Shown here: in pieces, positions 2,328-64,000 of the stretch
Layout of the letters: every line of letters begins with the position of its first letter
How positions within the stretch are numbered: the first letter of the stretch is position 1
NCBI GenBank assembly: GCA_033065855.1
Contig: JAVXUO010002057.1
Span: 1 to 64,000, forward strand
From: Escallonia rubra
Taxonomy: Eukaryota; Streptophyta; Magnoliopsida; Escalloniales; Escalloniaceae
DNA length: 64,000 bases
Direction of reading: 5' to 3'
Translations under genes and position numbers: made by a program
Notes under the pieces: model-generated
Database searches by the model: none
The model's input: the letters and a program-made list of their open reading frames with translations, nothing else
Told to the model about the DNA's origin: nothing

Positions 2328-3623
2328 CTATACCCCCGCAGGAATGGTAAAGGTGATTGGGTACTGCCGCGTTGCAGTCGACGGAACCTGCGGTGGGACC
2401 TGCATTGCTGTCTTCATTACATGATCGAAACCAGCATCATATTTGGTCCGCTTAGGAGCCCTACTAATTCCTTGGACTTCCACTGTACTTTCTTCAGAAA
2501 AACTAGAAGCCGCTCCATCGTCCATTTCCTCTGCATCATCTTCTGACCAAGATGACAAGTACTCGTTGTCGGACCAATCCTCTGAGAAAGAGGAACAACT
2601 CAGCTCATCATCGCTATCGGACAACAAGACCAAGGAGCTGACTGCATTTACATCCGAAACATCCTCCAAAGCTTCGACCTCCTCATCATCAACCAACCCT
2701 TCCACAAATGGGTGACACAAGAGCATTTCTGCTGTCAACCTAAACATGGCCTTCCTCACGAAACAACCCTTCAAGAAACTCCTCGCCTCACTCGATACCT
2801 CATTAGGTACTTCAGGCAATCCACGCCCTTCACCAATCTCATTTAAAAGCCCCTCAGCATCCAAATGCTCTTTCTCACACCAAGGAGGCTTCCCAGTCAG
2901 CATCTCAAGCACAATGCATCCAAGCGCCCAGATATCAGACGGCGGCTCTTGTACACCATCAGCCACCACCTCAGGTGATAAATACATAGGAGTACCTCTC
3001 CAGTAAGGACCAATCTTCCTCTTCTTACTCTGCTTCACCCTCTTCGCCAACCCTAAATCCCCAATTTTTGCAATAAATTCATTCTCACCGTTAGGAACAA
3101 GCAAAATATTATCAGGCTTCAAATCACAATGAACATAGCCGCAATCATGAATATGAAGTATCCCACGAAGCATTGACCTAGTATACCTCCTCGCATCGAA
3201 CTCGGCCAATCCAGTCTCACCCGATTTCTTGATCAAATCAGCTAGGGTTCCACCGGAGCCATACTCCAACAAAAGATTATAAACCATCTCACCATTCACC
3301 CCTCTGGTAGTCTCATCACCATAACTCTTGATCACATTAACACACCCCTTGACATTACTCAAAACCTCCCGCTCCTTCTGAATTGAACCCGAAACCGATA
3401 CCTCAGCCGATTTAACAGCCATAACCGGCGGCAAACAACGGTACGGCGATCTGGGCTTCTTCAACCTAGCCAAATAAACAGACCCAAAACTTCCTTTCCC
3501 TATCATTGCACCCCTTAACCATGCCACCCCATCTCCATACTTCTGCACAACCACCTTATTGGGTTGTCGCAGCACAAGCTCACCTTCTTTCTTATCACCC
3601 TCCATTACTTTACCCCTCTCCAT
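2328..3623 (-). CDS. MAPKKK17/18/20-like (NPK1-type) protein kinase
   Basis: This is an intronless 431-residue serine/threonine kinase. The glycine loop GKGSFG is at residues 42-47, the ATP-anchoring lysine is K71 (MAVKS), the catalytic loop HCDLKPDN is at 165-172 with the catalytic aspartate at 167, and the activation segment runs from DLG (189-191) to SPE (216-218) with GTPMYLSPEV. The Mg-binding DFG motif reads DLG here, a tolerated variant. The kinase domain ends near residue 310; the remaining ~120 residues are acidic and Ser-rich, with no further domain seen. Single-exon structure and GTPMYLSPEV fit the plant MAPKKK17-20 clade, whose members act upstream of MKK3 in abscisic acid and stress signalling; that role is by family analogy. 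A second in-frame Met at residue 7 could be the true start. The shorter plus-strand frames across it are shadows. Confidence 0.9.
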   Translation of the reverse strand: MERGKVMEGDKKEGELVLRQPNKVVVQKYGDGVAWLRGAMIGKGSFGSVYLARLKKPRSPYRCLPPVMAVKSAEVSVSGSIQKEREVLSNVKGCVNVIKSYGDETTRGVNGEMVYNLLLEYGSGGTLADLIKKSGETGLAEFDARRYTRSMLRGILHIHDCGYVHCDLKPDNILLVPNGENEFIAKIGDLGLAKRVKQSKKRKIGPYWRGTPMYLSPEVVADGVQEPPSDIWALGCIVLEMLTGKPPWCEKEHLDAEGLLNEIGEGRGLPEVPNEVSSEARSFLKGCFVRKAMFRLTAEMLLCHPFVEGLVDDEEVEALEDVSDVNAVSSLVLLSDSDDELSCSSFSEDWSDNEYLSSWSEDDAEEMDDGAASSFSEESTVEVQGISRAPKRTKYDAGFDHVMKTAMQVPPQVPSTATRQYPITFTIPAGV

Positions 3624-4900
3624 AAATAATCTCCGTCTATCTTGCTTTAAACTTCAGAATGCTGCTAGAAAAATTTAGGGTTTTTGGTACAACAGCTAAA
3701 GGTAAGGATATACAGCCGGGGGAGGAAGTGGAGGAAGGGTTTGCAACCCAAATCCAAAGAGGTATTGGAGAAGTGGGTTTTTTTAGAGGAAATAGGACTA
3801 CAAAACAGGTGAATTGAGGGTCAAGGAAAATCTAGGGTTTTTTGACACGGAAAGTTTCTGAATTTAGGCAAATGCGTGTAAAGAGCCGCGTTTTCTTTCG
3901 AGGGGGGGGTTCGTTCTTCTTTCGTGGGGTTCGTTTAATTTAACGGAATAACGGTCATGTGCCTTATAACGCATGTGAGGGTTTAGTGAGTCCTCTCTTT
4001 TTATTTTATTTATTTTATATCTTGGGGGTCTTTGGTCTTATTGGGTGTGACTACTATTTTTGGGCATGGACCTTTTCTGGTCATCATGGACTTGGGAGGG
4101 AGAATGGTCACACTTTCACTGCTCATACAAGTCAAGTCAGATATTACAAAAAGTGCAACATCAAATGGACCCCCTAGAGGTGGCTCTCCATGCTAGATAT
4201 GCTTCAATTCATTGAACCCTCCTCTTTGTTGATTATTGTCTCTTGATGTTGATCATCTTACTGTAAAACTACAGAGTGTGGTTTTGTTTAGAGTTGCGAA
4301 TTAAGACGTCTACTATAGAGCATATCTGTTGTGGTAGATACGTGTCTTTAAATATACTTTACTGATAATTTATAATTTTAACAACAGCCGTAAATTTATC
4401 ACTAAAACTCAGCACGTGAGATAAGTATGGCGGCATCACTTTGATGAAATTTGTGCTTAGTCCCATTGTCTCGATGCATTTTGTGAGAAAAATATGGGAT
4501 AATGAATGTGTATAGATTGTAAGAAGGTAGTTCCATCCAAGAAAGAAAAGAACAAAGAGATTGTGAAGAGCACCTTTCATGTTTATTTGAAGAGGTTGAG
4601 TGTCTGAGAGCACTTTGAAATTTAGAGGTAATAAATAAATTGCATAACCTGAAAGAAGATTGTGATTCTCTTAACTTCTACTTCTAGATTCTATAAATAA
4701 ATAAATTCTTTACGAATTTATGTGTCTTTTCTCTTGTTTTTCACTTGTCTTTTATAAATGGAATTGTGCTCTTTAACTCACCACGTGGTTTAAAGGAGTT
4801 ACGTGACTGCAATTAATATCATTTTTTGTTATGTTCATTTTCATGCATGTCCCTATCTCTAATGTGTGGTTAATTATAATTTGCATGGATCACAATTTGG
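3624..4900. other. Kinase gene 5' flank and intergenic region
   Basis: The first ~300 bases beyond 3623 are the presumed leader and promoter of the minus-strand kinase gene. The rest is AT-rich and carries no gene that can be supported. Confidence 0.45.
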
Positions 4901-4902
4901 TG

Positions 4903-5530
4903 TTTTTTTTTTTTTTTTTTGTAATTGAGACGTATTATTGAACTAAAAGAAAGCAACAGCTAAACATCATTAATGTTCTCGTCTTCTTCCAAATTTACCA
5001 AAAGGTTGGATGAAGGAGGAACAAAGTTAAAACGGTTACAAAAGAAAGCTTTAGAAGCTAAGACATGGGCTGCTGTATTTGCCGTTCTCGGTGAATGAAT
5101 AGCATCCCAATTTAGAAGATCTTTCGCGTCTTCAATGTAGGCTCTGATATTCCAAAAAGGAGGGTGCAAATGGTCTGTGAGCATCTTGATGATAACTTCT
5201 GCATCCCCTTCAATTATGATGAATTGCTTTTGTTGTTCTAAGGCCAAGCGGATGGCCAAAAGAACAGCTCTAGCCTTTGCAATATCTGGTATTCCTGTGT
5301 CAACTGAAAGAGTGTGACCAAACTCCATTTTTCCTTCAGAATTGAGACATAGCACAACTATGCAAGCTTTGTTCCCCCTGATTGCTGCATCAAAATTGAT
5401 CTTGTACCATCCAAAGGGTGGGGGAGACCAAGCTGAGCTGGGCTTCTTTACATCCTTGGATTTGGTGATTGCTTCCAGATAATTTTGAGCTGAAGAGTTT
5501 ATATGCGAGGCCAAAGAGATGGGATGTCTT
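4903..5530 (-). mobile_element. 5'-truncated LINE 3' end with decayed RNase H domain
   Basis: The minus strand encodes the C-terminal RNase H-like domain of a plant non-LTR retrotransposon, inside a frame at 4960-5643. It shows SPPPFGWYKINFDAA, EGDAEVI and a terminal NTAAHVLA. An 18-base T run at 4903-4920 is the poly(A) tail in LINE orientation, about 40 bases beyond the stop, so the 3' end is intact. LINE similarity fades above about 5530, where the copy appears 5'-truncated. Two of the usual acidic positions are lost: the helix that normally carries Glu reads KARAVLLA, and the last Asp is His. The domain should therefore be inactive. No convincing target site duplication was found. Upstream residues in the same frame have no visible LINE character. 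Confidence 0.8.
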
Positions 5531-5649
5531 AAATTATGAGTACTCACCCCAAAAAAATGATAGCAAATGTGCTTGACTTTCAAAATGGACAATTTATTGT
5601 GGTCATTGCAAATAAAAATAAGAACATTTTTTGGAGGGAGCATATACTT

Positions 5650-6300
5650 TTTATCAAATTAGATTGTCTTAATTGTTCTATGTTTACTTATGCATCAAGT
5701 GACTTGATTATTAAAAATTTTAACTCTCGAAGCTATAATAACCGCGACAACTCCATGACAAAAAAATTAACCTTTTATCTCTAACGCTATACTAATTAAA
5801 TTTGTTAAGAGACTCTTAAATTCCCGCTTAGGCGCTATTTTTGGTATAACTTTGTGTCTATCTTGTTGCAATATTTTTTTTTGGGTCAAATGAGAAGTAT
5901 CATAGATTGTCAAAACCATACTTCCTAGTGCATTTTTAAAGTCACATGAAAGCCTCCACTTCTAACCTTAAAATGGACCCAAAAAAAAAAGGCATTATTT
6001 TCACGTGATAATATGTTATTTAACCATTTTACTTCTTTCTGAAGGTAAAAATATATGTAATACTAAAACACATTTTAAGCAACAAAAAAAAAGAGAAAAA
6101 AATATTTAAGAGAGTGAAAATAACATGGGCTGCAAAAATTTCACCCCATAAGTGAACATCTAGAAAAGGGTAATTATTTAACCAAGTTAAGAAGTTGAAA
6201 ACTAAAAAGAAAACCAATTTGAAGAGCACTACCTTTATTGATGACAATTTCTTATAATTTGCGACAATAACAGCCAGGTGTCCCTGAAGATCTCATTACT
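5650..6300. other. AT-rich intergenic sequence, nothing recognised
   Basis: AT-rich sequence with scattered homopolymer runs. No gene or structured repeat could be supported. Confidence 0.4.
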
Positions 6301-12036: not shown

Positions 12037-12901
12037 ATGGTCGCTCGAAAAATGAGGAATACTCTTTTTCTCATCTACCTCGTTACTTCCCTAGGAATGG
12101 GCTTTCTTGCTGTTGAAACAAGAGGTCTACCAGGTAATCTTGTAGGTCCTTTTTCGAGTATTCTCTTGTGAAGTTTGAGTTGTGTATGTGCATTCTTAGT
12201 AAAAAAATGGTGCAATAGAAATTTCAAATTTTCTCCCACTACTCCAGAAAGGGAGGAAAAAGGTTAGTTGCCCTTTGAAGCAGCTTACAGGCTTATAGTA
12301 GTCTCTTTAGGGTGCTCCAGGTGATTTGTTTTAGACTTTCTTTCTTAAAAGGTGGCATAATACAGAGATTAGTTGTTGAGTATCTTCAATTAAGTTCTTA
12401 TTAAACCAAAATATTTCCAGTTATAACTCCTTTTGGGAGGGATGTTTCTACCCTCTGCATTTCCTTGGATAAATTGTGCACATAAATGTCCTCTAGAATT
12501 ACCATTCTAGGGGCGACTAGCAATCACTCTTTTATTGTATACTTTGTTTCAGAAATTTATACACTTCTGACTATACATCTAGTTATGCGAGTATACTAGT
12601 AAAAGAAGCGTGGATACAAACTGCTCTTTCACTTGGCCATATTACCTTCTTTTACTTTCTCCTGTCACAATTATGAAGTTCCATTTGTTACAGATTATTA
12701 GGTTTCATTTGACGATATACTCCTTGTTCATGTTCAGCAGGGGTTCCACGCAACTTAATTATGACAGATGATCCCTACGAGAGGTCCAAAAGCCCGCCAC
12801 CACCTCCAAACGTATCGCCACCAATACATAATAACATGGAGACACAAGCATACTTGCTTTTAGAAGAGTCTCCTCCCAATCCATACTCAACTGCATCCTA
12901 A
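12037..12901 (+). CDS. HypSys-like secreted proline-rich peptide precursor A (two exons)
   Basis: Exon 1 is 12037-12133 (32 codons plus one base) and ends at a GTAATC donor; exon 2 is 12741-12901, after the acceptor TTCAGCAG. A tandem acceptor 3 bases upstream would add one residue. The joined frame encodes 85 residues. The N-terminus is a hydrophobic signal peptide (NTLFLIYLVTSLGMGFLAV, residues 8-26), so the product should enter the secretory pathway. The mature part carries one motif, PYERSKSPPPPP (residues 44-55), and a conserved tail EESPPNPYSTAS (74-85). Tyr-x-Arg followed by Ser-Pro4-5 in a signal-peptide precursor resembles hydroxyproline-rich systemin (HypSys) precursors, whose prolines are hydroxylated and arabinosylated. 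It is paralogous to genes B and C but has a 607-bp intron and lacks the first peptide block. An alternative start is Met6. Assignment rests on motif similarity only. Confidence 0.7.
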
Positions 12902-13860
12902 GTTAAGTAGATCCTGCAAGACCTTTGGATTGGCTGTTTGTTCTAGTATTGTCATAGGTTTATATGCGAGTGGGCAGGATCTACCTGGAGCGGAGGAAGT
13001 TGCAACCAAACTCATGTCCTTTGGTGCCCGAAATGTAGGGTGATTAGATGACCGGTATAAAAGTGCTGATACCGAGGATCCATCAAAATGCAGTTGCGGT
13101 GCCACCATTGCTTTCGCCGTTAGTATTCCATGTTTGTGGTGTAAAGATAATAAGGAAGTACTCTAACCAGCATGTCTATACGTGAAGTTATGGTATTTGG
13201 AATGTCACATAACTCTGTAAAATATACTTGAATGTATTTGCAAATATGCGTGTACCAGAATGTGTATTAAAGTATTAATGGACTGGCTAGCTCCTCGACA
13301 GTGTTTCATATTTTGCTATTAAGATGCTACTCATTAAGCTTGTGATAATTCTGGTTGTTTCCACTTTCCAGTGGGGACGGCTCCTTTTTGTCTACGTACT
13401 GCTACGTTTGTTTGGATATATACCTTTGTTCTACAACCCGAAACTTTAAGGAGATGTGAAGTGAACCTAACAATAGAAGCAGTGACAATCAAAGATCAAA
13501 GTACAGAGGCCATAAGTGTCAGCAGTAGATAGAGATTTCCCACCTAATGTGTGAATTTAAAATTTCAGCTCATCTGGGAAAACCTGACAGAGAATAGGAA
13601 AAAGAACACCCATCTGAACAATGGAGCTGTTGCTGCTTACATTTATTCAATGACATACTGCTAAAGAAAGCTCGACCCACTATCACTTAAGAATTCTTAG
13701 ATTAAAGTGGTCGGTACCTTGGAAAATTTAACCTACGAAGGTGACAGCCAATAATACTGGTTGAGTAACATTAAGCTATCATCATTTGGAAGCAACACGT
13801 AGATAGTAGGGTTTCCAAAACTAGGAATTTAAGAGAGGATGAACCACGTATGATCATATA
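12902..13860. other. Downstream flank of peptide gene A
   Basis: Contains the presumed 3' untranslated region of gene A, followed by AT-rich sequence. Nothing else is recognised. Confidence 0.4.
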
Positions 13861-14172
13861 TGTTGAACCTAGTGTCCAACTCAAAAGCATGCTCAAGAGT
13901 AAGAGAAACCCACCAGATATAAGAACCAATCACAAATCCCATGTATTGTCGATGTGGGACTTGACACCCGCCCTCACGCAAAGTGTGGGAATAAGAGGTG
14001 CTCCTCTTGAATAAGAGGTGGTCTCGTTGGATCGAATGGGGCGGCAGGGGCCTATCTCTGATATCATGTTGAACCTGGTGTCCAACCCAAAAATATGCTC
14101 AAGAATAGGAGAAGCCCACCAGGTATAAGAACGCATCCCAAACTCCATGTATTGTCGATGTGAGACTTGATA
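13861..14172 (-). mobile_element. TRIM (miniature LTR retrotransposon), complete
   Basis: Two direct repeats of exactly 106 bp, 13861-13966 and 14067-14172, flank a 100-bp interior. Read on the minus strand the better-preserved repeat begins TGTCAAG and ends TTCAACA, the canonical TG...CA of an LTR; the other begins TATCAAG by one change. Immediately inside the 5' LTR (minus strand) is TGATATCAGAGATAGG, close to the primer-binding site TGGTATCAGAGC complementary to initiator tRNA-Met. A purine-rich GTGAGGGCGGG, a polypurine tract candidate, abuts the other LTR. Flanks ATATA and ATATG agree at four of five bases. There is no coding capacity, so mobilisation would depend on another element. The short minus-strand open frame across it is incidental. 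Confidence 0.85.
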
Positions 14173-15079
14173 ATATGAACCTCAATTAGAGGTTAACAGG
14201 GAAGGTGATTAAGACTAAAACATTTCTTGCAAATTGCAATCATTTCCTTGTTATTGCAAACAGTAGGGATTTCTGATCCAAACACCTCTGTGCGACCAAG
14301 AATTTCTTCATCTCTTGCAAATTGCAGTCGTTTCCTTGTTATTATTTCAAAGTGAAAACATGAATTTTTTGTAGCAATTGAAAGATCAAAGATGCCTAGC
14401 TAGAGAACTTACAGTTACGCAGGGTTGTATCAGATGCATCTATGTTTGTACCTTTCTTTTGAGTCCCTGTGTTTTGGGAATTTTCATTGCATTATCCAAG
14501 CTTGATTTTACGGTTAAAGATGGAGATTAGAGTTTAAAAACAAGCCAAGCTATTCGAGGTCAATATTTTTAGGCCGCTCGGTAAGAGGCGTGTTTGAGAT
14601 CTGGCTGTGCGATAACAAATCAAGCTTGAGCATATTGTGCACCTTATTGAGCTGGTTGGTGCAAGTTATGGCATCAAAAACAAAACCAGCTGAGCTCAGG
14701 CTCATCTGAAATTGGCTTGACAAGCCTAATTTACATGGATCAAGCATAAATATGATTGTCTTGGGAAATGTGTTTCCACAGCTTGCCGCAGACAACTTAT
14801 CTGTAGCAAGGTGGAAGTGATCGCGTTACAATTCTTGAAAAAAAAAATGGCACGACTTGATTACAAGATGAGAAAAAAAAGACGTTCTCTCTCTCTCTCT
14901 CTCTCCTCTGGTTTATCTGACTCTGAACCATATTCCTCCTCCCAACCTTCTTAGCCCGCAGAATTCTCCTTATAACGTTATGTATTTGATGAAAGTAGTT
15001 CGATAAACGAGAGTGAGAGTGAGAGAGAAGGAGATTGGGCTTTTTCTCATTTTTCAATCAAGTTGTGTGCTTGTTACTC

Positions 15080-15121
15080 AGAGAGAGAGAGAGAGAGAGA
15101 GAGATATATATATATATATAT
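15080..15121. repeat. Compound (GA)n(TA)n microsatellite
   Basis: About twelve GA units run directly into about eight TA units. Confidence 0.9.
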
Positions 15122-15229
15122 GGTGTGAATTTTTTTTCCCTAAACTAAAACGCTGTCGTTTTACCTTGTAGCAGATAACTTGTCTCTAGAATCGCTTTTT
15201 CCTTTGCTTATACTTAGATTTGATGTCTC

Positions 15230-15420
15230 AACGAACGGTTTTTTTTAGTGGTTGTTAAATATTTCCAGCGACAATTAATTGTCGTTTAATATTTTTAGTG
15301 ACTTTTATTTAGTGATGCTAAAAAAGTGATGTTAAAAGTTGTCGCTAAAAGTGTTAATAGAAAAGTCACTAGAAACATTTAGCGACTATTAATTATCACT
15401 ATATAAGAGGTTGGAGGAAG
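15230..15420. repeat. MITE-like AT-rich repeat with TTTAGCGAC motifs
   Basis: The segment contains the palindrome CGACAATTAATTGTCG and several copies in both orientations of a TTTAG(C/T)GAC word. A related stretch with the same order of words (tcact...ATTTAGCGATTATT...TATCACTAT) occurs near 56220-56285, so this is a dispersed repeat. Family and exact ends are unknown. Confidence 0.5.
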
Positions 15421-15684
15421 ATTCCTACAAATAGAATAGCAGCCAAAGTTTGTTCTTTTCCTATTTCAACTTATTAAAACTTGAGACTGAACTGGTATTA
15501 TAAGTATGAAAACAAAAGTATAACAAATAATTGCACTGCCTTTGGAAAACGTCGTAGTAGCGTTGGCACTAGTGTTTCCCTAGCCCATATATAGTACTAG
15601 TAGGAAATAAAAAAAGTTCTAAACAAAGCAGCACGAAAGCCAAATCTATTCACCATCTCCTACACGCGAGAGTTGAGAAGACTT

Positions 15685-15966
15685 GACTGATCAAGTCTAC
15701 CTATCAGATAGTATTATGTTATTTCTCGTGGGATTACTATAAGCTTGGAATCAAACCCAAGTGCTAAAATCAACACGCGCAGCTAGTAGAACTGCAAGAT
15801 TGACCACATAACAAGTCTAAGGACTCTCCATTGGCCCGACTCTTTCACACTTACGTCAAACATATCATGCATAATGTTACCTACTATAAACTAGCCTTTC
15901 AAGAGCCATTATAAATGTACACCAGACTAGATCCTTCCAATTGCATCTCAAGAGAACTGAGAAAAC
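15685..15966 (+). promoter_or_regulatory. Promoter region of peptide gene B
   Basis: TATA-like sequences lie at about 15883 (CTATAAAC) and 15909 (TTATAAAT); the second is about 58 bases before the ATG. Words are shared with the gene C promoter in the same order: TGATCAAGTCTAC, TTTCTCGTGGGATTA, GATTGACC...CCACAT, ATGTTACCTACT and TAGATCCTTC. This shows that the duplication that made B and C included the promoter, so similar expression is expected. Confidence 0.65.
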
Positions 15967-16299
15967 ATGAAGGTCACGGTGCTGATAGCTCTCTTTCTCA
16001 TACCATTCTTTGCTGATTTTCTTGGGACTCAAGCGAGGATTTTTCCCCGTGATGTTCATGAGATGAACTATGATAATTTAAGCGCGAAAATTCTCGCAAG
16101 AATAACGTGGCATAGTTACCAGAGGAACCCGAGTCCACCGCCGCCGTCTCCGAAGTCTGCACCACCAAGCAGGCAGGTAGCCGTGAATACTGATTATGGA
16201 AGAGCAGCAAAGGCACCACCTCCACCCCCAAATGGATCACCGGGGAGCCGCCCGTTGTTCGAAGAGTCGCCTCCAAATCCCTACCTGGCCTCAGCCTGA
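15967..16299 (+). CDS. HypSys-like secreted proline-rich peptide precursor B
   Basis: A single-exon frame of 110 residues. Residues 1-23 form a signal peptide (VTVLIALFLIPFFADFLG, likely cleavage after GTQA). Two proline-rich blocks follow: HSYQRNPSPPPPSP at 49-62 and TDYGRAAKAPPPPPNG at 75-90. The tail is FEESPPNPYLASA. Tomato HypSys peptides have a Arg-His-Asp-Tyr or Tyr start followed by Ser/Thr-Pro4, and their precursors carry several such peptides after a signal sequence; gene C matches that pattern closely and B is its duplicate. The first block here has Ser-Tyr instead of Asp-Tyr. If the family assignment holds, the peptides would be hydroxylated and glycosylated apoplastic signals in wound or defence responses. 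No intron is needed. A truncated LINE sits about 50 bp past the stop and may alter the 3' end of the transcript. The alternative, a generic proline-rich cell wall protein, is less likely given its small size and tyrosine motifs. Confidence 0.8.
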   Translation: MKVTVLIALFLIPFFADFLGTQARIFPRDVHEMNYDNLSAKILARITWHSYQRNPSPPPPSPKSAPPSRQVAVNTDYGRAAKAPPPPPNGSPGSRPLFEESPPNPYLASA

Positions 16300-16348
16300 G
16301 CTGTTTTTATATATAGACGTGTAGTGCATTATTCTGTAACTTTCTTCC

Positions 16349-18178
16349 TTTTTTTTTTTTTTGATAACAGGGTTATATATAAATACTAGAGTTAAACAAT
16401 TACAACCAAGTTCCGATTATCTTCCAACTTAGACAACAAAAAGGAAGAGGATGGAACAAAGCCAAAAAGGTCGTAAGCAAAAGCGTTTGCTGCAAGGTTG
16501 TGAACTGCCCGGTTCATATCTCTAGGAGTGTGCATAGCTTCCTAGCATGGGATCTTGGCCTAGAGAGCATGAATTTCAAGAATGGTAGCTCTACATCTCC
16601 AGGGAATGCAGAGGAGGTGGTTTGTAATGAGGTTAACAATTGTTTCAGCATCTCCTTCCAAAATCACGAAGTTCTTCTTTAGTTCCACCGCTTTTCGAAT
16701 GGCCATCAGCGCTGCGAGAGCCTCTGCTTCCTCAGCATTCCCACATTGGGCTTTTGCAGTGTACCCAAATTCACAACTACCATTCTCATTCCTACAGATC
16801 ATTGCCAAGCTTGCCTCCGAGCCTCTAAAGGCCGCATCGAAATTAATCTTAATCCAACCAAAGGGTGGTGGTGACCAACACCTGGAACCACACCTAGCTG
16901 GGTTAGATTTGCTGAATGCTTCAACTAGCTCATGAGTTTCTTTGTTGATTGATTCTGCCAATCGTAACACATTGATGCCAAAATCTTCATGAATCACTTT
17001 GTTACGATGGAACCAAACAAGATCCATAAGGGTAGCTACAAAAATAGAATACTCCTTTTGGTCATTCACTGATAATCCCGGGCATTCAAGCATTGCCATC
17101 AACCAGTCAGCAGGACGAGATGATGGTTGAGGAGGTCTGAATCCCAATCTCGATTTGAGCCATAAAAGACGCGAGACGCTGCATTCAATGAATAAGTGAG
17201 AGGTTGTTTCTGGGATATCGCCACACATAGGGCACATGTTGTTCGGCGATTCGGATGGAGGATTCAGAATCGGTTTGGTTGGTAAAATGCTCCAAGCTAT
17301 CCTCCAGATGAGGATTTTATGCCTCTCTCTGATTTTTTCTTTCCATAGTTTTTTCCAAAAGAGATGAGGGAATCCAGCATTATGAGTGAACTTCTGTTTG
17401 TTTGCTTCCAAGTATGCTGATTTCGTGGTGAAGAAACCTGAGCGGTTTGGGGTCCAAGCTATCAAATCTTGGGTTTGCTGAGTTGGAAGCCGAATTTTCA
17501 TGATCAAGTCCACAGTTTCGCTGTCAAAAAGATTTCGGAGTTTGGGAGTAATCCATTCCTTAGTGCTTGCTGAAAAAAGATCTGCCACCATGTTGATGTC
17601 AAGGCCTAGACTGGAAGAGTGAGCCTTTTTGAAGCCGTCCGGGGATGGTATCCATGGATCCTGCCATATGTTTTTCGAACGACCGTCGCCTATGATAACT
17701 CCCAGGCCGCTTTTGAGAGTTGGTTGAGTTCTACAAACGCCTTTCCAGAGCCAAGAGGAGTTTGATTTTGCTTTGTGATCAAGAAAGGGTGTGCCTCTAA
17801 GGTATTTTGAATTCATGATTTGCACCCATGTAGACGAAGGATTTGTTAAGACCATCCAGCCGATTTTGGCAATAAGCGCTAGGTTAACCTCATGCATGCG
17901 CTTGAATCCGAGACCCCCCCGTAGATTTTGGCGTGCAAATGGCATCCCAAGCTTTAGGGAAAAATTTCCTTCCTCCATCATCTTTCGAACCCCACCAGAA
18001 GTTTCTGAATTTTTTGTCGAGAAGATTCGACAGATTCATCGGAAGAAGAAATGTGGACATTGTGTAAGTGGGGATAGCCATTGCAACCGACTTGATGAGG
18101 GTCGCTCTTCCGGCGAAGGATAGGACTTTTGACTTCCAGCTCGCAAGTCTTTTATCAATTCTGTCGAAGCTTGGTCAC
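16349..18178 (-). mobile_element. 5'-truncated LINE with frameshift and stops
   Basis: The minus strand encodes the C-terminal part of a plant LINE polyprotein: the end of reverse transcriptase (KRLASWKSKVLSFAGRATLI near 18150-18080), FWWGS, a connecting region, a zinc-knuckle-like zf-RVT segment with CPMCG...H...C near 17240, and an RNase H domain (KINFDAAFRGS, EAEALAA, EGDAET). A T run at 16349-16362 is the poly(A) tail. Above about 18178 the frame meets a stop and similarity ends, so the copy is 5'-truncated. An 8-base C run near 17911-17918 marks a frameshift between frames 17890-18081 and 16560-17981. Two stops interrupt the RNase H end, and its last Asp is Asn. The copy is dead. It lies directly downstream of peptide gene B. 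Confidence 0.9.
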
Positions 18179-18179
18179 T

Positions 18180-20400
18180 ATTATCTACGTGCAATCGTAG
18201 TGAATACCATGTCAGTAGATTTACGTAATTTATACACTATGGTGTGACAACAGTAATGAGCCATATGAGGTGACTAGAGACCCAACTGGTCTATATGTGC
18301 AGTGCTGCTTTCCCTGCCTACCTGCACGTCAACTAGTGTTGTCTGAAGGGTAACCCCCACATGCATTCCTACCTAAGCCTCAACTCGAGCTGTTAAACTG
18401 AATGCATCTGAAATATAAAGACCTATGTGTATCATTGTCTTTCTAATCTGTCAACATTCGTGTTCATAAGCTAAGGCCTAGATAGCTTACTACAACATGG
18501 CAAGATTAACTCATGCACTCTGTTCATAGACAAAATCAAAGGCCTTTCTTTCTTTCTTTCTTTCTTTCTTTTTTTTTTTTTTTTTTCCTGTGGGTAAGAA
18601 CTCTACCAACCATATCGTTAACAAGGAAGCAGTAGAAGATAGAGTACAATAAAACAACTAACATGTGACTGCTCACCCCACAACGTAACCCCAAATAAGG
18701 AGCTGCATATATAGTTAAATCTCCTGGCCTTGAATTTTTGAGAGCGGCTAAAGAATAATCGACCTTAACTCTGAAAAAGTTGTACCGGGAATCATAAAAA
18801 ATTAGCGCGCCCTTACTTGAATCAAGATATATTAATGAAAAGTATGGACAATAACCCTGTCCTGGTGATACCCATCAAGAATTGCAAAACAAACAAGATC
18901 GACAACGGCTCCGTTTGGTAAAACTTATGAGTTTTAAGTTTTAAGTTTTGGTTTTTATTTTGGGACCACCACCACCCTCCCACCAACGGCAGCCACCCTC
19001 TCACCGATGGTAGCCATCGCCCACCGCCATTGCCCACCGCCGGCGACTGCCGGTGGCTGGCAGCCACCACCTACCACCGCATGCGGCCGGCCACCGCCAC
19101 CGCAAACCACCACCAAAGAAAAAACTCAAAATAAAAACTGGGTAATCAAACACCCATTTGTTTTTGTAAAAAAAAAAAAGTTAAACTGATTTTAATTTTT
19201 GTTTTTTTGGAAACAGAAAACTAAAACTGGAAGTGTTACCAAACACTACCTAAACATACCATAAACCAAATCAAGAAACAAATTAACTGTACACAAACAA
19301 GATAAACCTGCCACTTAGCAACCAAATAAACTTGCCACGACTAACTCCACCTATTAGCAACAACCAAATAAACCCAACAAAGTCAACACATCCTTCTGAA
19401 CATGACACATGTCCAACCAAGACCCATGCCCCAAGACCACACAACACGCGACCATACATGCCCACTTGCATTAGCGCCCATCATCACCACTGGCCGACCG
19501 TCGCGGTGAAAACTCCCACCACTAATATTGTAGCACACCAACTTCGCCCGCCTCTGAACATCACCCCTGAACCGAACTAAACTCTTACCCTTTTGACTTC
19601 CACAAAACAATCACCACCACAAAAACTACCACTACACCTCTCGATGCCAAACCGCCACACATCGACGCCCAACAACCCTACCAACAAAGTCCTTCAAAAA
19701 TCTCCCATCGATGCAGCGATACCAGCCATCGCCAAATCCGTCTCAACAAACCTTTTATAAAAATGGGATGAGGGGGAAGACAACCCCAATAATAATAATA
19801 AAAAAAATCCTTTTGAACATACTCACTTACCATCTCCAACCAGCGGCAACACCATCCCCACTAATCCAGATGGAGATCCAACCCTTTCGGCTAGCTATTT
19901 AGCCCACCACAAGCACACGAGTAACCCATCACAACGGTACACGGTAGCATTCAACCATAATCGCAACAACAGATCAAGCACTGCAAGATCTCAGCCATAA
20001 CGAGGCCCAAAGCTAAAAATTTAAAACACGCTCATAAAAAAAGTCAAACATACCAAAGACGCGCCCCTAGATTACTGGGCCACCACACACTGAGGAGGTG
20101 ACGGAGGACGGAGGATGGAAGAGGGAGGCTAAATCGTCGGGAGAAGGGGTGTCGCAAAAAGTCCTATAGTAATTGTCTAGGCCGCTAAGAAGATAATGTG
20201 TATCATTAAAGTTAGTACCAGCAAGGCAATACCAAACTTAATTCGATATTTAGCATTTTTGATACACGATACTTGTATCCAAGGGCTCACGCGAGATGGG
20301 CAACGAGCGCCTTTTCTTTCTAGAGATGCAAGATTCAATTCTCCTCTCTCTAATCGTTGCAATAGAAAAAACGTGAACCTTGAAAAGTGTGGCACATTCC
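18180..20400. other. Repeat-rich spacer between peptide genes B and C
   Basis: No gene is supported. It contains a (CTTT)n/poly(T) tract at about 18548-18588, a MITE-like element at 18907-19250, and a strongly A/C-rich stretch from about 19250 to 20050 in which short open frames arise by composition. Confidence 0.45.
18907..19250. mobile_element. MITE-like element with GTTTGGTAA termini
   Basis: The left end GGCTCCGTTTGGTAAAACT and the complement of the right end GGTAGTGTTTGGTAACACT match at most positions. Subterminal regions rich in AAGTTTT and its complement also mirror each other. The centre is a C-rich block of CCACC and GCCACC words. No matching target duplication was found, so the exact ends and the superfamily are uncertain. 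Confidence 0.55.
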
Positions 20401-20753
20401 CCGATTGATCAAGTCTACAATCATATTCTTTCTCGTGGGATTAAACTAAGCCTATAGACTAACTTAATTCCGAAAATCAACATCTCCCACTAGATCTATA
20501 TATGAGATTGACCGACCACATGAGAACCAGTTGGTTCAACACCTGAAGTAGTAGCCTTTCCCACTTAGCTCTGACTTTCAATCATTTACCATTCTTTGTT
20601 GACAGGAGATTATTTAACTACGAAACAGAAAGAATGTAATAGTAGTATATAGCAAGCATGATGTTACCTACTTCAACTACCTCTTTCAAGTGGCTCTATA
20701 AATATAGACAAACTCTAGTAGATCCTTCATTTTCACCTTCACAATAGTGAAGA
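20400..20753 (+). promoter_or_regulatory. Promoter region of peptide gene C
   Basis: A clear TATA box, CTATAAATATA, lies at 20695-20705, about 50 bases before the ATG at 20754. Blocks listed for gene B recur here in the same order, showing a duplicated promoter. Confidence 0.7.
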
Positions 20754-21107
20754 ATGAAGGTGATCACAGTGGTGATAACCTTTTTTCTCGTGCCATTTTT
20801 GGCTGAGTTGCTGGGAACTCAAGCAAGAGTTTTACCTGGTGATGTTCTTGTGATGAGCTATGACGATATGAGCTCGAGAGTTTTGGCAAGAATAACGAGG
20901 CATGATTACGAAAGGAGCCAGAGCCCGCCGCCGCCTTCTCCAACACCAGCAACACCAAGTGGACAGATATCAGTGAGTAGTACTGCTGATTATGAACGAA
21001 CACCAAGGTCACCACCTCCGCCACCAAGTGGATCGACGCCTACCCACCCGGTCGTTGCAGTGTTACCTAAAGTGCCACCCCCAAATTCCTATGAAGCCTC
21101 CATCTGA
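20754..21107 (+). CDS. HypSys-like secreted proline-rich peptide precursor C
   Basis: A single-exon frame of 117 residues. The signal peptide covers residues 1-24 (ITVVITFFLVPFLAELLG, then GTQA). The first peptide block is RHDYERSQSPPPPSP at 49-63, the second ADYERTPRSPPPPPSGS at 79-95, and the tail is PPPNSYEASI. The first block, Arg-His-Asp-Tyr followed by Ser-Pro4, closely matches the form of tomato HypSys II, which is why I read this cluster as HypSys-like. Asp-Tyr is also the recognition start of tyrosine sulphotransferase, so sulphation is possible. Gene C aligns with gene B along its whole length, including the leader ARV/ILPG-D and LARIT before block 1, so they are tandem duplicates about 4.8 kb apart. 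Function is inferred from motif likeness only. Confidence 0.8.
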   Translation: MKVITVVITFFLVPFLAELLGTQARVLPGDVLVMSYDDMSSRVLARITRHDYERSQSPPPPSPTPATPSGQISVSSTADYERTPRSPPPPPSGSTPTHPVVAVLPKVPPPNSYEASI

Positions 21108-57589: not shown

Positions 57590-58440
57590 TCCTGCGGGGA
57601 TAGGCGACTCCTCCGGGACACTATCTCTGCCAGGGAGCTCTTCAACTCCCCTTCCGCCAGGTAGACGGCTCCTCCGGGATGCTACCTCGGCCAGTCAGGT
57701 AGACGGCTCCTCCGGGATGCTACCTTGACTCGCTCCGAGTGCTCCGGCACAAGGACTCACCCGCAGGGATAGGCGACTCCTCCGGGACACTATCTCTGCC
57801 AGGGAGCTCTTCAACTCCCCTTCCGCCAGGTAGACGGCTCCTCCGGGATGCTACCTCGGCCAGTCAGGTAGACGGCTCCTCCGGGATGCTACCTTGACTC
57901 ACTCCGAGTGCTCCGGCACAAGGACTCACCCGCAGGGATAGGCGACTCCTCCGGGACACTATCTCTGCCAGGGAGCTCTTCAACTCCCCTTCCGCCAGGT
58001 AGACGGCTCCTCCGGGATGCTACCTTGACTCGCTCCAAGTGCTCCGGCACAAGGACTCACCCGCGGGGATAGGCGACTCCTCCGGGACACTATCTCTGCC
58101 AGGGAGCTCTTCAACTCCCCTTCCGCCAGGTAGACGGCTCCTCCGGGATGCTACCTCGGCCAGTCGGGTAGACGGCTCCTCCGGGATGCTACCTTGACTC
58201 GCTCTAAGTGCTCCGGCATAAGGACTCACCCGCAGGGATAGGCGACTCCTCCGGGACACTATCTTTGCCAGGGAGCTCTAAGTGCTCCGGCACGAAGACT
58301 CCCCTTCTGCCAGGTAGACGGCTCCTCCGGGATGCTACCTTGGCCGGCCAGGTAGACGGCTCCTCCGGGATGCTACCTCGGCCTGCGGAATAGGCGACTC
58401 CTCCGGGACACTATCTCCGTCAGGGTGCCTGCGTGACTGG
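57590..58440. repeat. 169-bp tandem repeat array, six units
   Basis: The word TAGGCGACTCCTCCGGGACACTATCT, taken as unit start (first 20 bases TAGGCGACTCCTCCGGGACA), occurs at 57601, 57770, 57939, 58070, 58239 and 58391. Spacings are 169, 169, 131, 169 and 152. Each unit contains one or two copies of a ~38-bp subunit, GGTAGACGGCTCCTCCGGGA and following bases, and loss of one subunit explains the 131 spacing. Units are nearly identical, so the array is young or homogenised. The last part is followed by the LTR-like promoter below. Confidence 0.85.
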
Positions 58441-60920: not shown

Positions 60921-61853
60921 ACCCTAGGATGTTGGAAAGTTCCATTCCCCATGAATTCGGGCCATTCCGAAGCCGGTAGCAATTTTTTGCCGAACGGGCT
61001 TTTAAGCGCTCGATCCGGACACCGGTTCGGGATTTTTTGACGCAAAATCCCTAAAATGCTTTTTAGATCAAGGATGGACTCAGAAACCTTAGAATAGCGT
61101 CTTAAAGCACTTTTGAGATTTTTCCCGATGCCAGGGGCATTTTCGTAATTCGCCGCCCGATAGGGGTATTTTCGTAATTTCACGCTGTCAACTTTTTTGA
61201 ATGACTGCTCAGTCCGTAAATGTAAGCACACCCTAGCGAAGACTGGGAAGTGCCATGTCTAACGAATTCGGGCCATTCCGAAGCCGGTTGCAACTTTTTG
61301 CCGAACGGGCTTTTAAGCGCTCGATCCGGACACCGGTTCGGGATTTTTTGACAAAAAATCCCTAACATGCCTTTTAGACCAAGGATGAACTCAGCAACCT
61401 TAGAATAGCGTCTTAAATCACTTTTGAGATTTTTCCCGATGCCAGGGGGCATTTTGGTAATTTGCCGCCCGATAGGGGTATTTTCGTAATTTCACGCTCT
61501 CAACTTTTCCGAGCGTCAATACTGTCCGTAAATGTAAGCACACCCTAGCGAAGACTGGGAAGTGCCATTCCCCAGGAATCCGGGCCATTCCGAAGCCGGT
61601 AGCAATTTATTGCCGAACGGGCTTTTAAGCGCTCGATCCGGACACCGGTTCGGGATTTTTTTGACAAAAAATCCCTAAAATGCTTTTTAGACCAAGGATG
61701 AACTCAGCAACCTTAGAATAGCGTCTTAAAGCACTTTTGAGTTTTTTCCGATGCCAGGGGAATTTTGGTAATTCGCCGCCCGAGAGGGGTATTTTCGTAA
61801 TTTTGCCCCTTTCAACTTTTTCGAGCGCCTTTTCAGTCCGTAAATGTAAGCAA
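60921..61853 (+). repeat. ~310-bp tandem repeat, three units, inside the PMD leader intron
   Basis: Units 60921-61229, 61230-61541 and 61542-61853 (309, 312, 312 bp), each starting ACCCTAG. They share long blocks, including GGGCCATTCCGAAGCCGGT, GCTCGATCCGGACACCGGTT, CTTAGAATAGCGTCTTAAA, TTTTCGTAATTTCACGCT and AGTCCGTAAATGTAAGCA. A fourth partial start (AACCTAG) is near 61854. The reverse strand has open frames of about 90-115 codons in two units that repeat the same peptide; they have no start context or domain and are taken as chance. Confidence 0.88.
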
Positions 61854-62049
61854 AACCTAGAGAAGGCGGCTAGGGTTATTAAGCGTTCGGAGTCGTTGGA
61901 AGTGAGGAATGGTTTTCATACATTAAAGTAATGATTTAATGACTATTGTTATTGCGTTGGTAAGCTAGGTTAACGATTCAGTTACAGTTTTGGAATGTAA
62001 ATATTATGGACGCTAAGTTAATGTACGATTATATTTTGTTCTTACAGAT

Positions 62050-64000
62050 ATGGATTTCAACCCTGGACCTCATGATACATCAATCCTATACGATGACGAT
62101 GACCACGTCGCGAGGCACGTATTTAACGGTGTCGATAGGGGTGTTTTGGAAACACGTCAAAGCACAAGTGGCCATTCCGAGTGGGTACTGAATGAGGAAC
62201 AAATAGAACTACTGCGAGATCAAAATTTGACGGTGTTCACCGATTGCGGGATTTGGGCTCGGCACGACGATTGCCTTATATCTGCTCTAGTTGAACGATG
62301 GAGGGGCGAGACGAACTCATTTCACTTCCGGTTTGGTGAAATGACTATTACATTAGAGGACGTTGGATTTATACTTGGAATCCCATGTCACGGTAGACCC
62401 ATTACTTCGGGTAATGGGTCTGCATCCATAGCGAAGATGGCTATGCAGTATTTTCCGGGAATTCCAAGGGAAGCTCTTACAACCAACGGCATAAAACTTA
62501 AATGGCTGAGAGAGCAGTACGGCGAGCTACCGGATGAATACACTCCTCATGATTTTTCGGTGTATACGAAGGCATTCCTTTTGTATATTATTGGATCTAT
62601 ATTACTTCCGACGCAAAAGAAAAACACGGTGCATCCGAAGTATATGGTGTTCTTGGAGGATCTTGGGGAGGTATACTCGTATTCGTGGGGTTCAGCTGTC
62701 CTTGCGCACCTATATCGAGCATTGCACAAAGCTACGAGAAAGGGTGCCAAGTCCATTGCCGCCTGCATCACTCTGTTACAGGTTTGAGCATTAATATTCT
62801 TCGTTGACGTGCCAATATATTCGTGATTAATAACTAATTCCATATTATGTTTGCATTCACAGGTTTGGTCTTACGAGAGGCTACCCACGGGTCGTCCACA
62901 GCCCGTAGCTGATTCAGATGAGACGTGGCCTAGGGTGTGGGCTTGGGGGCCTAGGCCCAGACGGACTAAACGGGTAGACCCTCACCACAATCTAATGTTC
63001 TATCGGGGGGAACTAGATATGATGGATGCATCCCTGGTGACGTGGCAGCCATATGGGAAGGTGATGCATCGGTTGGATGAGACGTGTTGGCAACTGCCGG
63101 TGTCGTACGTGCTGGCAGGTTTGGTTCGGGTGCCACTTATTCATTTCGAAGTATGTGAGTTTCAGATGCCCGATCGAGCTATGAAGCAAGCTGGCTGTCC
63201 ACAAGGGATTCCAAAACTCGCTGGAGACATGCGGCCATACAGGGGTGGTCGAGGGCCGAACTTCGAGGTGGCTAATGCCTTGATTTTGTTGGGTGACGAG
63301 GTGGATCAGTGGAATACCTGGCAGGAAACGTATGATAGCCTTGTATCGCTCAAGGACGACGGCACCAGTACTGAGGAATACTTACAGTGGTTTCTCAGGG
63401 TGACGCGCACGAGGGTGAATCGCCCTTCCGAAGTGAGGACGTCATCGTACGCGCCACGTGAGGTCTATGACCAGTTCTGGGCATTGAGCATTGTAAGTCA
63501 GCTTGAGTGTCGTTTCAATATTGATTTGCGCACCTTCTCGACCATGCCTGAAATGATGACGGTGATTTTTCTATGCATGTTTGTAGGTTGACAAGGGCAC
63601 TGAGATGTTCAAGCAGCTCGAGCGGTTTGACTGGTATGTCGCGCATGCGCCTGACAGTTTCAAGAGCTCCGTTGAGTCGTACAAGACTGATCTTCACAAC
63701 TTTGGTGTTGCGTACCGGGGTTACCAAGGGGAACCGTCTACTCGCTTGCCTCCTGACCCGTTCGGCTCTCAGCCCCAGCCCCAGAGTCAGGTGTGGGAGC
63801 CGTCTAGTGGCTTGCCTCCTGACGCGTACATCCCACAGCCCGAGAGTCAGGTGTGGGAGCCGTCTAGTGGCTTGCCTCCTGACGCGTACATCCCACAGCC
63901 CGAGAGTCAGGTGTGGGAGCCGTCTAGTGGCTTGCCTCCTGACGCGTACATCCCACAGCCCGAGAGTCAGGTGTGGGAGCCGTCTAGTGGCTTGCCTCCT
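62050..64000 (+). CDS. Plant mobile domain (PMD) protein, MAIN-like; 3' end beyond window
   Basis: Exons 62050-62781, 62863-63492 and 63587 to beyond 64000 join in phase, for at least 592 residues here. The N-terminal ~450 residues are a PMD (aminotransferase-like, plant mobile) domain: LSALVERWRGETNSFHFRFGE-type start, then TITLEDVGFILGIPCHGRP, GSAVLAHLYRALHKATRKGA, LLQVWSYERLP and PHHNLMFYRGELD. The domain occurs in Arabidopsis MAIN/MAIL proteins, which help silence transposons and keep meristems, and in transposon-borne relatives often annotated as phosphatase 7 long form homologues. The third exon carries a 20-residue tandem repeat EPSSGLPPDAYIPQPESQVW (63797 onward) after one diverged unit. 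The frame is intact, and no stop was met before the end. Whether this copy is host gene or part of a mobile element cannot be told here. Confidence 0.88.
63731..64000 (+). repeat. 60-bp coding tandem repeat in the PMD gene
   Basis: A diverged first unit (63731-63796, 66 bp) is followed by units 63797-63856, 63857-63916 and 63917-63976 and a partial one to the end. The last three full units and the partial one appear identical base for base. The period keeps the reading frame. Unit number beyond the window is unknown. Confidence 0.95.

Follow-up and report, generated by a model that had tools for sequence, protein, structure and literature searches.

Three tandem genes for small proline-rich proteins as candidate members of the hydroxyproline-rich systemin precursor kind

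Introduction

Three genes for small proline-rich proteins, here called A, B and C, follow one another on the plus strand within 9.1 kb, and the question they raise is whether they encode precursors of hydroxyproline-rich systemins (HypSys) or proteins of another kind. They lie in the window, the stretch of DNA analyzed here, which covers bases 1 to 64,000 of a contig of 361,152 bases in an assembly of 566 Mb. In four reviews (PMC4621407, PMC11371470, PMC8591736, PMC6547358), HypSys precursors are described as having a signal peptide and the peptides as 15–20 residues long, hydroxylated and glycosylated, and as triggering alkalinization and proteinase-inhibitor or defensin genes. The same texts call the proteases and the receptor unknown and place HypSys in the Solanaceae, or in the Solanaceae and Convolvulaceae; the reported sources are tobacco, tomato, petunia, potato, black nightshade and sweet potato (PMC4621407 among the reviews). 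A literature search turned up no paper that names both HypSys and Actinidia.

Gene models and protein features

The first-pass annotation had described three plus-strand genes for proteins of 85, 110 and 117 residues, and coding sequences for all three are present where it had placed them (Table 1). The product of gene A reaches 85 residues after a putative splice of its two exons, which is supported because the joined reading RGLPGVPRNLIMTDD parallels RVLPGDVLVMSYDD of gene C; if the acceptor instead lay three bases upstream, so that exon 2 began at 12738, the protein would have 86 residues. All three proteins open with a hydrophobic stretch that resembles a signal peptide, as judged by hydropathy, with a 12-residue Kyte-Doolittle maximum of 2.1–2.9 within the first 24 residues (at residue 10 in A). 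None contains cysteine, and past residue 24 proline makes up 21–22% of each.

Table 1. Positions of the three genes, their features and the interposed retroelement remnant in the window.
Feature	Position	Strand	Remarks
Gene A exon 1	12037-12133	+	Signal-peptide-like start, then spacer to RGLPG
Gene A intron	12134-12740	+	607 nt, GT...AG, inferred
Gene A exon 2	12741-12901	+	Stop included; one block and tail
Gene A block DPYERSKSPPPPP	Tyr codon at 12776	+	In exon 2
Gene A tail EESPPNPYSTAS	12863-12898	+	In exon 2
Gene B upstream stretches	15713-15775 and 15862-15922	+	Common to C, aligning in this order with the two C stretches; TATA-like site 15910
Gene B	15967-16299	+	110 aa, single exon, one open frame
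Gene B block 1 WHSYQRNPSPPPPSPKSAPPSRQ	16108-16176	+	Alignable with reconstructed tobacco preproHypSys
Gene B block 2 DYGRAAKAPPPPPNGSPGSRP	16192-16254	+	Read from the open frame
Gene B tail EESPPNPYLASA	16261-16296	+	Common to gene A
Retroelement remnant between B and C	16560-18035	-	zf-RVT and RVT_3 domains; outside the family
Gene C upstream stretches	20420-20482 and 20649-20709	+	Common to B; TATA-like site 20697
Gene C	20754-21107	+	117 aa, single exon, one open frame
Gene C block 1 RHDYERSQSPPPPSPTPATPSGQ	20898-20966	+	Resembles TomHypSys GRHDYV...SPPPP; score 50, 117/5000 shuffles
Gene C block 2 DYERTPRSPPPPPSGSTPTHP	20988-21050	+	Resembles TomHypSys I; 12/20 identical; score 74, 0/5000 shuffles
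Gene C tail VPPPNSYEASI	21072-21104	+	Looser match to A/B tail

Blocks of the form Y-x-R-x(1-5)-PPP number one in A and two each in B and C, counted by motif position; B and C carry the several blocks of a HypSys precursor and A a single one. The cores read YERSKSPPPPP in A, YQRNPSPPPP and YGRAAKAPPPPP in B, and YERSQSPPPP and YERTPRSPPPPP in C, and in three of the five an aspartate immediately precedes the tyrosine. Tyr/Arg-Ser-Pro4-5 blocks had been claimed for all three proteins; the blocks are there, but the second block of B has alanine in place of the serine ahead of the prolines. Similarly, the tail said to be identical throughout is shared by A and B (EESPPNPY), while that of C is looser (KVPPPNSYEAS), with P-P-N-x-Y invariant near the C-terminus of all three; the version of A used for this tail comparison carried one surplus Gly in another part of the protein.

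The block motif is rare outside these genes. In six frames of the window, which contain 85 overlapping PPP tripeptides, the pattern Y.R.{1,5}PPP occurs five times, and all five occurrences fall inside A (1), B (2) and C (2). It occurs once in 38 other loci of the genome (116,058 bases, partly overlapping, with 241 PPP) and in two of 25 loci around weak search matches (79,095 bases), these two being copies of one sequence. The clustering of the motif in A, B and C exceeds chance.

Comparison with tomato and tobacco preproHypSys

The tomato and tobacco reference sequences are reconstructions and not database records. Their lengths of 146 and 165 residues agree with the reviews (PMC4621407 and others), and the tomato peptide starts at 49, 71 and 111 fit the spacers of 24, 4, 25 and 16 residues given there. 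For the tomato peptides, one review table gives lengths of 18, 15 and 15 and another review (PMC4621407) gives 20, 18 and 15. TobHypSys I was checked against the letters printed in PMC10741408, the only HypSys peptide whose printed letters were located in the literature searched. As a control for composition, every proline was kept in place and the remaining residues were permuted inside 20-residue windows; counts below are of shuffles that reached the observed score.

In full-length Smith-Waterman alignments, C scored 100 (1/5000 query shuffles) and B 92 (3/5000) against the tomato precursor, and B scored 83 (0/5000) and C 63 (21/5000) against the tobacco precursor. As a yardstick, the two reconstructed precursors score 85 against each other (0/3000), and most of the B and C scores are of similar size. 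The direct test failed for A, which scored 44 against tomato (4402/5000) and 51 against tobacco (967/5000). Shuffling the references instead gave 2 for tomato-C, 4 for tomato-B, 0 for tobacco-B, 33 for tobacco-C, 4118 for tomato-A and 1101 for tobacco-A, each of 5000, and a repeat run with 3000 shuffles agreed with the run of 5000. The HypSys likeness proposed for the cluster is thus borne out for B and C (0–21/5000 against reconstructed references), but not directly for A. Among the 460 frames of at least 50 residues in the window, B and C are the top two for each reconstructed precursor. By BLASTP the matches to these references are weak, with best E values of 0.021 for C, 0.034 for B and 0.71 for A.

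The N-terminal parts, which contain no blocks, were also compared. Here the score was reached by 13 of 3000 shuffles for C with tomato, 11 for B with tobacco, 9 for A with tobacco and 30 for B with tomato; C with tobacco was weaker (119/3000), and A with tomato did not match (450/3000). The resemblance of A to the tobacco precursor is confined to its N-terminus. We count these block-free matches towards homology, and they agree with PMC4621407, according to which HypSys precursors are conserved in a stretch surrounding the signal-peptidase site; this stretch lies in the matches of C and B to tomato and of B and A to tobacco.

Two of 15 peptide-by-gene comparisons stand apart from the rest, that of C with TomHypSys I (Table 1) and that of B with TobHypSys I (score 60, 3/5000). 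Suggestive results came from four more pairs, namely B with TomHypSys I (72/5000), C with GRHDYV (117/5000), B with GRHDSV (214/5000) and C with TobHypSys I (291/5000), and the remaining nine are ordinary (at least 520/5000). The first block of C, singled out by the first-pass annotation as a close fit to HypSys, is among the suggestive pairs.

Tomato preproHypSys (TomHypSys I–III) shares with the proteins described here a signal-peptide-like start ending in G-x-Q-A-R, a short spacer with acidic residues, and Y-x-R or RHDY ahead of PPPP. It differs in having three peptides, whereas B and C have two blocks and a PPNxY tail and the genes stand three in tandem. Residues 1–72 of B align with the reconstructed tobacco preproHypSys-A (TobHypSys I and II) through the signal-peptide region, the AR box, Y-x-R and PPPSP-x-S-x-PPS. 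In the tobacco precursor, however, the peptides lie at both ends (PMC4621407), whereas the blocks here are near each other. Neither of the reconstructed precursors, tomato or tobacco, has anything that corresponds to the (E)SPPNPY tail.

Duplication, selection and the relation of A

B and C are tandem duplicates, with 62 of 110 aligned residues identical, and one of the two upstream stretches they share includes the TATA-like site. Between them dS is 0.654, dN 0.261 and dN/dS 0.40 (bootstrap 0.24–0.65), and purifying selection acts on both. The synonymous distance of A is saturated to B and 2.6 to C, which marks A as older. With prolines fixed, the score of A with B was reached by 0/5000 shuffles locally and 6/5000 globally, and that with C by 66/5000 and 6/5000; we place A in the family because its similarity to B and C beats these shuffles. 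The tandem family that had been claimed stands for B and C as duplicates with common upstream DNA, and A is linked through them but lacks a direct full-length precursor match.

Search for further members in the genome

A tblastn search of the 566 Mb with the reconstructed tomato precursor gave 33 weak places; B ranks second among them (E 0.295), and neither A nor C was listed. The second rank of B helps slightly and has no significance alone. The top place (L028:1501-1671, E 0.043) consists of a hydrophobic stretch with GRQART (LLGRQART) and a stop within a donor-like GTAAG, after which come a C-run and a CA repeat. This place was rejected as a HypSys member, as it reads through the stop into a microsatellite and Y-x-R-PPP is absent in six frames; the match is probably due to chance, and an exon is possible. 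Four of the other 31 places were examined (L030, L031, L033 and L038).

Protein searches of the genome recovered C, B and then 11 places at E of at least 0.23 with C as query; B, C and then nine places at E of at least 0.45 with B; and exon 2 of A itself followed by five places at E of at least 0.72 with that exon. None of the 25 weak places read on the matching strand pairs a signal-peptide-like start with a Y-x-R-PPP block, and the best of them (C1296, L046) was set aside since, by reading, it sits in retroelement gag-like sequence. At the sensitivity of the protein searches used, three family members were found, all in this cluster.

Interpretation and alternatives

B and C are probably preproHypSys homologues and would then be new members of this kind of precursor, with A as a shorter, diverged relative. 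Reservations to this reading include the reconstructed references, the E value of 0.295 for B with A and C unlisted, the lack of direct full-length similarity for A and the (E)SPPNPY tail peculiar to these proteins. The proteins could instead be short wall glycoproteins, extensin-like or proline-rich, which after secretion and glycosylation are never cut into signals, their likeness to HypSys being one of composition. Extensins do share secretion and SPPPP blocks with them, and the proline content past residue 24 points the same way, yet similarity to a generic extensin-type sequence ends at proline spacing (300 of 3000 shuffles reached the score for A, 2065 for B and 2744 for C), each protein has only one or two blocks, and the HypSys similarity survives the proline-fixed control. 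We consider this explanation unlikely.

Just as unlikely, in our view, is a different secreted peptide family in which the (E)SPPNPY C-terminus or a sulphated D-Y peptide is the main product and the proline blocks are spacers. The invariant P-P-N-x-Y and the aspartate ahead of the tyrosine in three of five blocks would suit it, and tyrosine sulphation favours sites with D before Y; against it, the blocks and the N-terminus match the reconstructed HypSys precursors. Membership of another characterised family had been named beforehand as an outcome that would count against HypSys, and a Pfam scan of A, B and C gave zero matches above cut-off, to another peptide family or otherwise. Two candidates for C were discarded, namely a sub-threshold Pfam match to VIR_N (E 0.4) and 23 PDB sequence matches, all to glycoprotein B (E 0.11–0.3) and driven by proline. 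That some or all of the genes are decaying, silent copies would fit the divergence of A and its inferred splice, but the frames of B and C are still open at a dS of 0.65, their dN/dS is 0.40 and they have upstream DNA in common, and we regard decay as highly improbable.

If B and C are preproHypSys homologues and A their relative, the signal peptide, with secretion predicted, would be cut near GTQA/R and the acidic spacer removed. By analogy with known HypSys, prolines in the (S/A)PPPP blocks would undergo hydroxylation and glycosylation on their way through the secretory pathway, extracellular proteases would release peptides of about 15–20 residues, one from A and two each from B and C, and a cell-surface receptor would read these as a wound or defence signal. 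The PPNxY tail is possibly a third product, or else a processing tail. A more far-reaching and rather doubtful proposal is a three-gene tandem HypSys system outside the Solanaceae and Convolvulaceae, in which PPNxY at the C-terminus forms a third conserved segment, and with D-Y-x-R cores that perhaps carry sulphated tyrosine beside glycosylated hydroxyprolines. Should the genome lie outside those families, the HypSys signal would be older in plant history, natural variants would narrow the active core (Y-x-R...PPPP), and a second system for hunting the HypSys receptor would be at hand. The G+C content is 41% in the window and 41.5% in 139 kb of search-chosen, partly overlapping loci of the genome; about 41% is high for Solanaceae. 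A kiwifruit actin primer gave no match when up to 1 mismatch was allowed.

Surrounding DNA

A single-exon protein kinase gene lies at 2328-3653 on the minus strand (Pfam Pkinase, E 5.2e-49), which we take to be of the MAPKKK type. A retroelement remnant at 4960-5658, also on the minus strand (RVT_3, RNase H-like, E 1.1e-9), is kin in type to the one between B and C. Between A and B there is a direct repeat of 105 nt (13860-13964 and 14066-14170, 87% identical) that is probably part of a mobile element. Towards the end of the window are tandem arrays at 57597-58408 and 60933-61865, with periods that include 131–300 nt and 312 nt (3 copies), a Plant mobile domain frame on the plus strand at 62017-62787 (PMD, E 2.1e-44), and a tandem repeat of 60 nt at 63776-64000 (3.8 copies, 99%).
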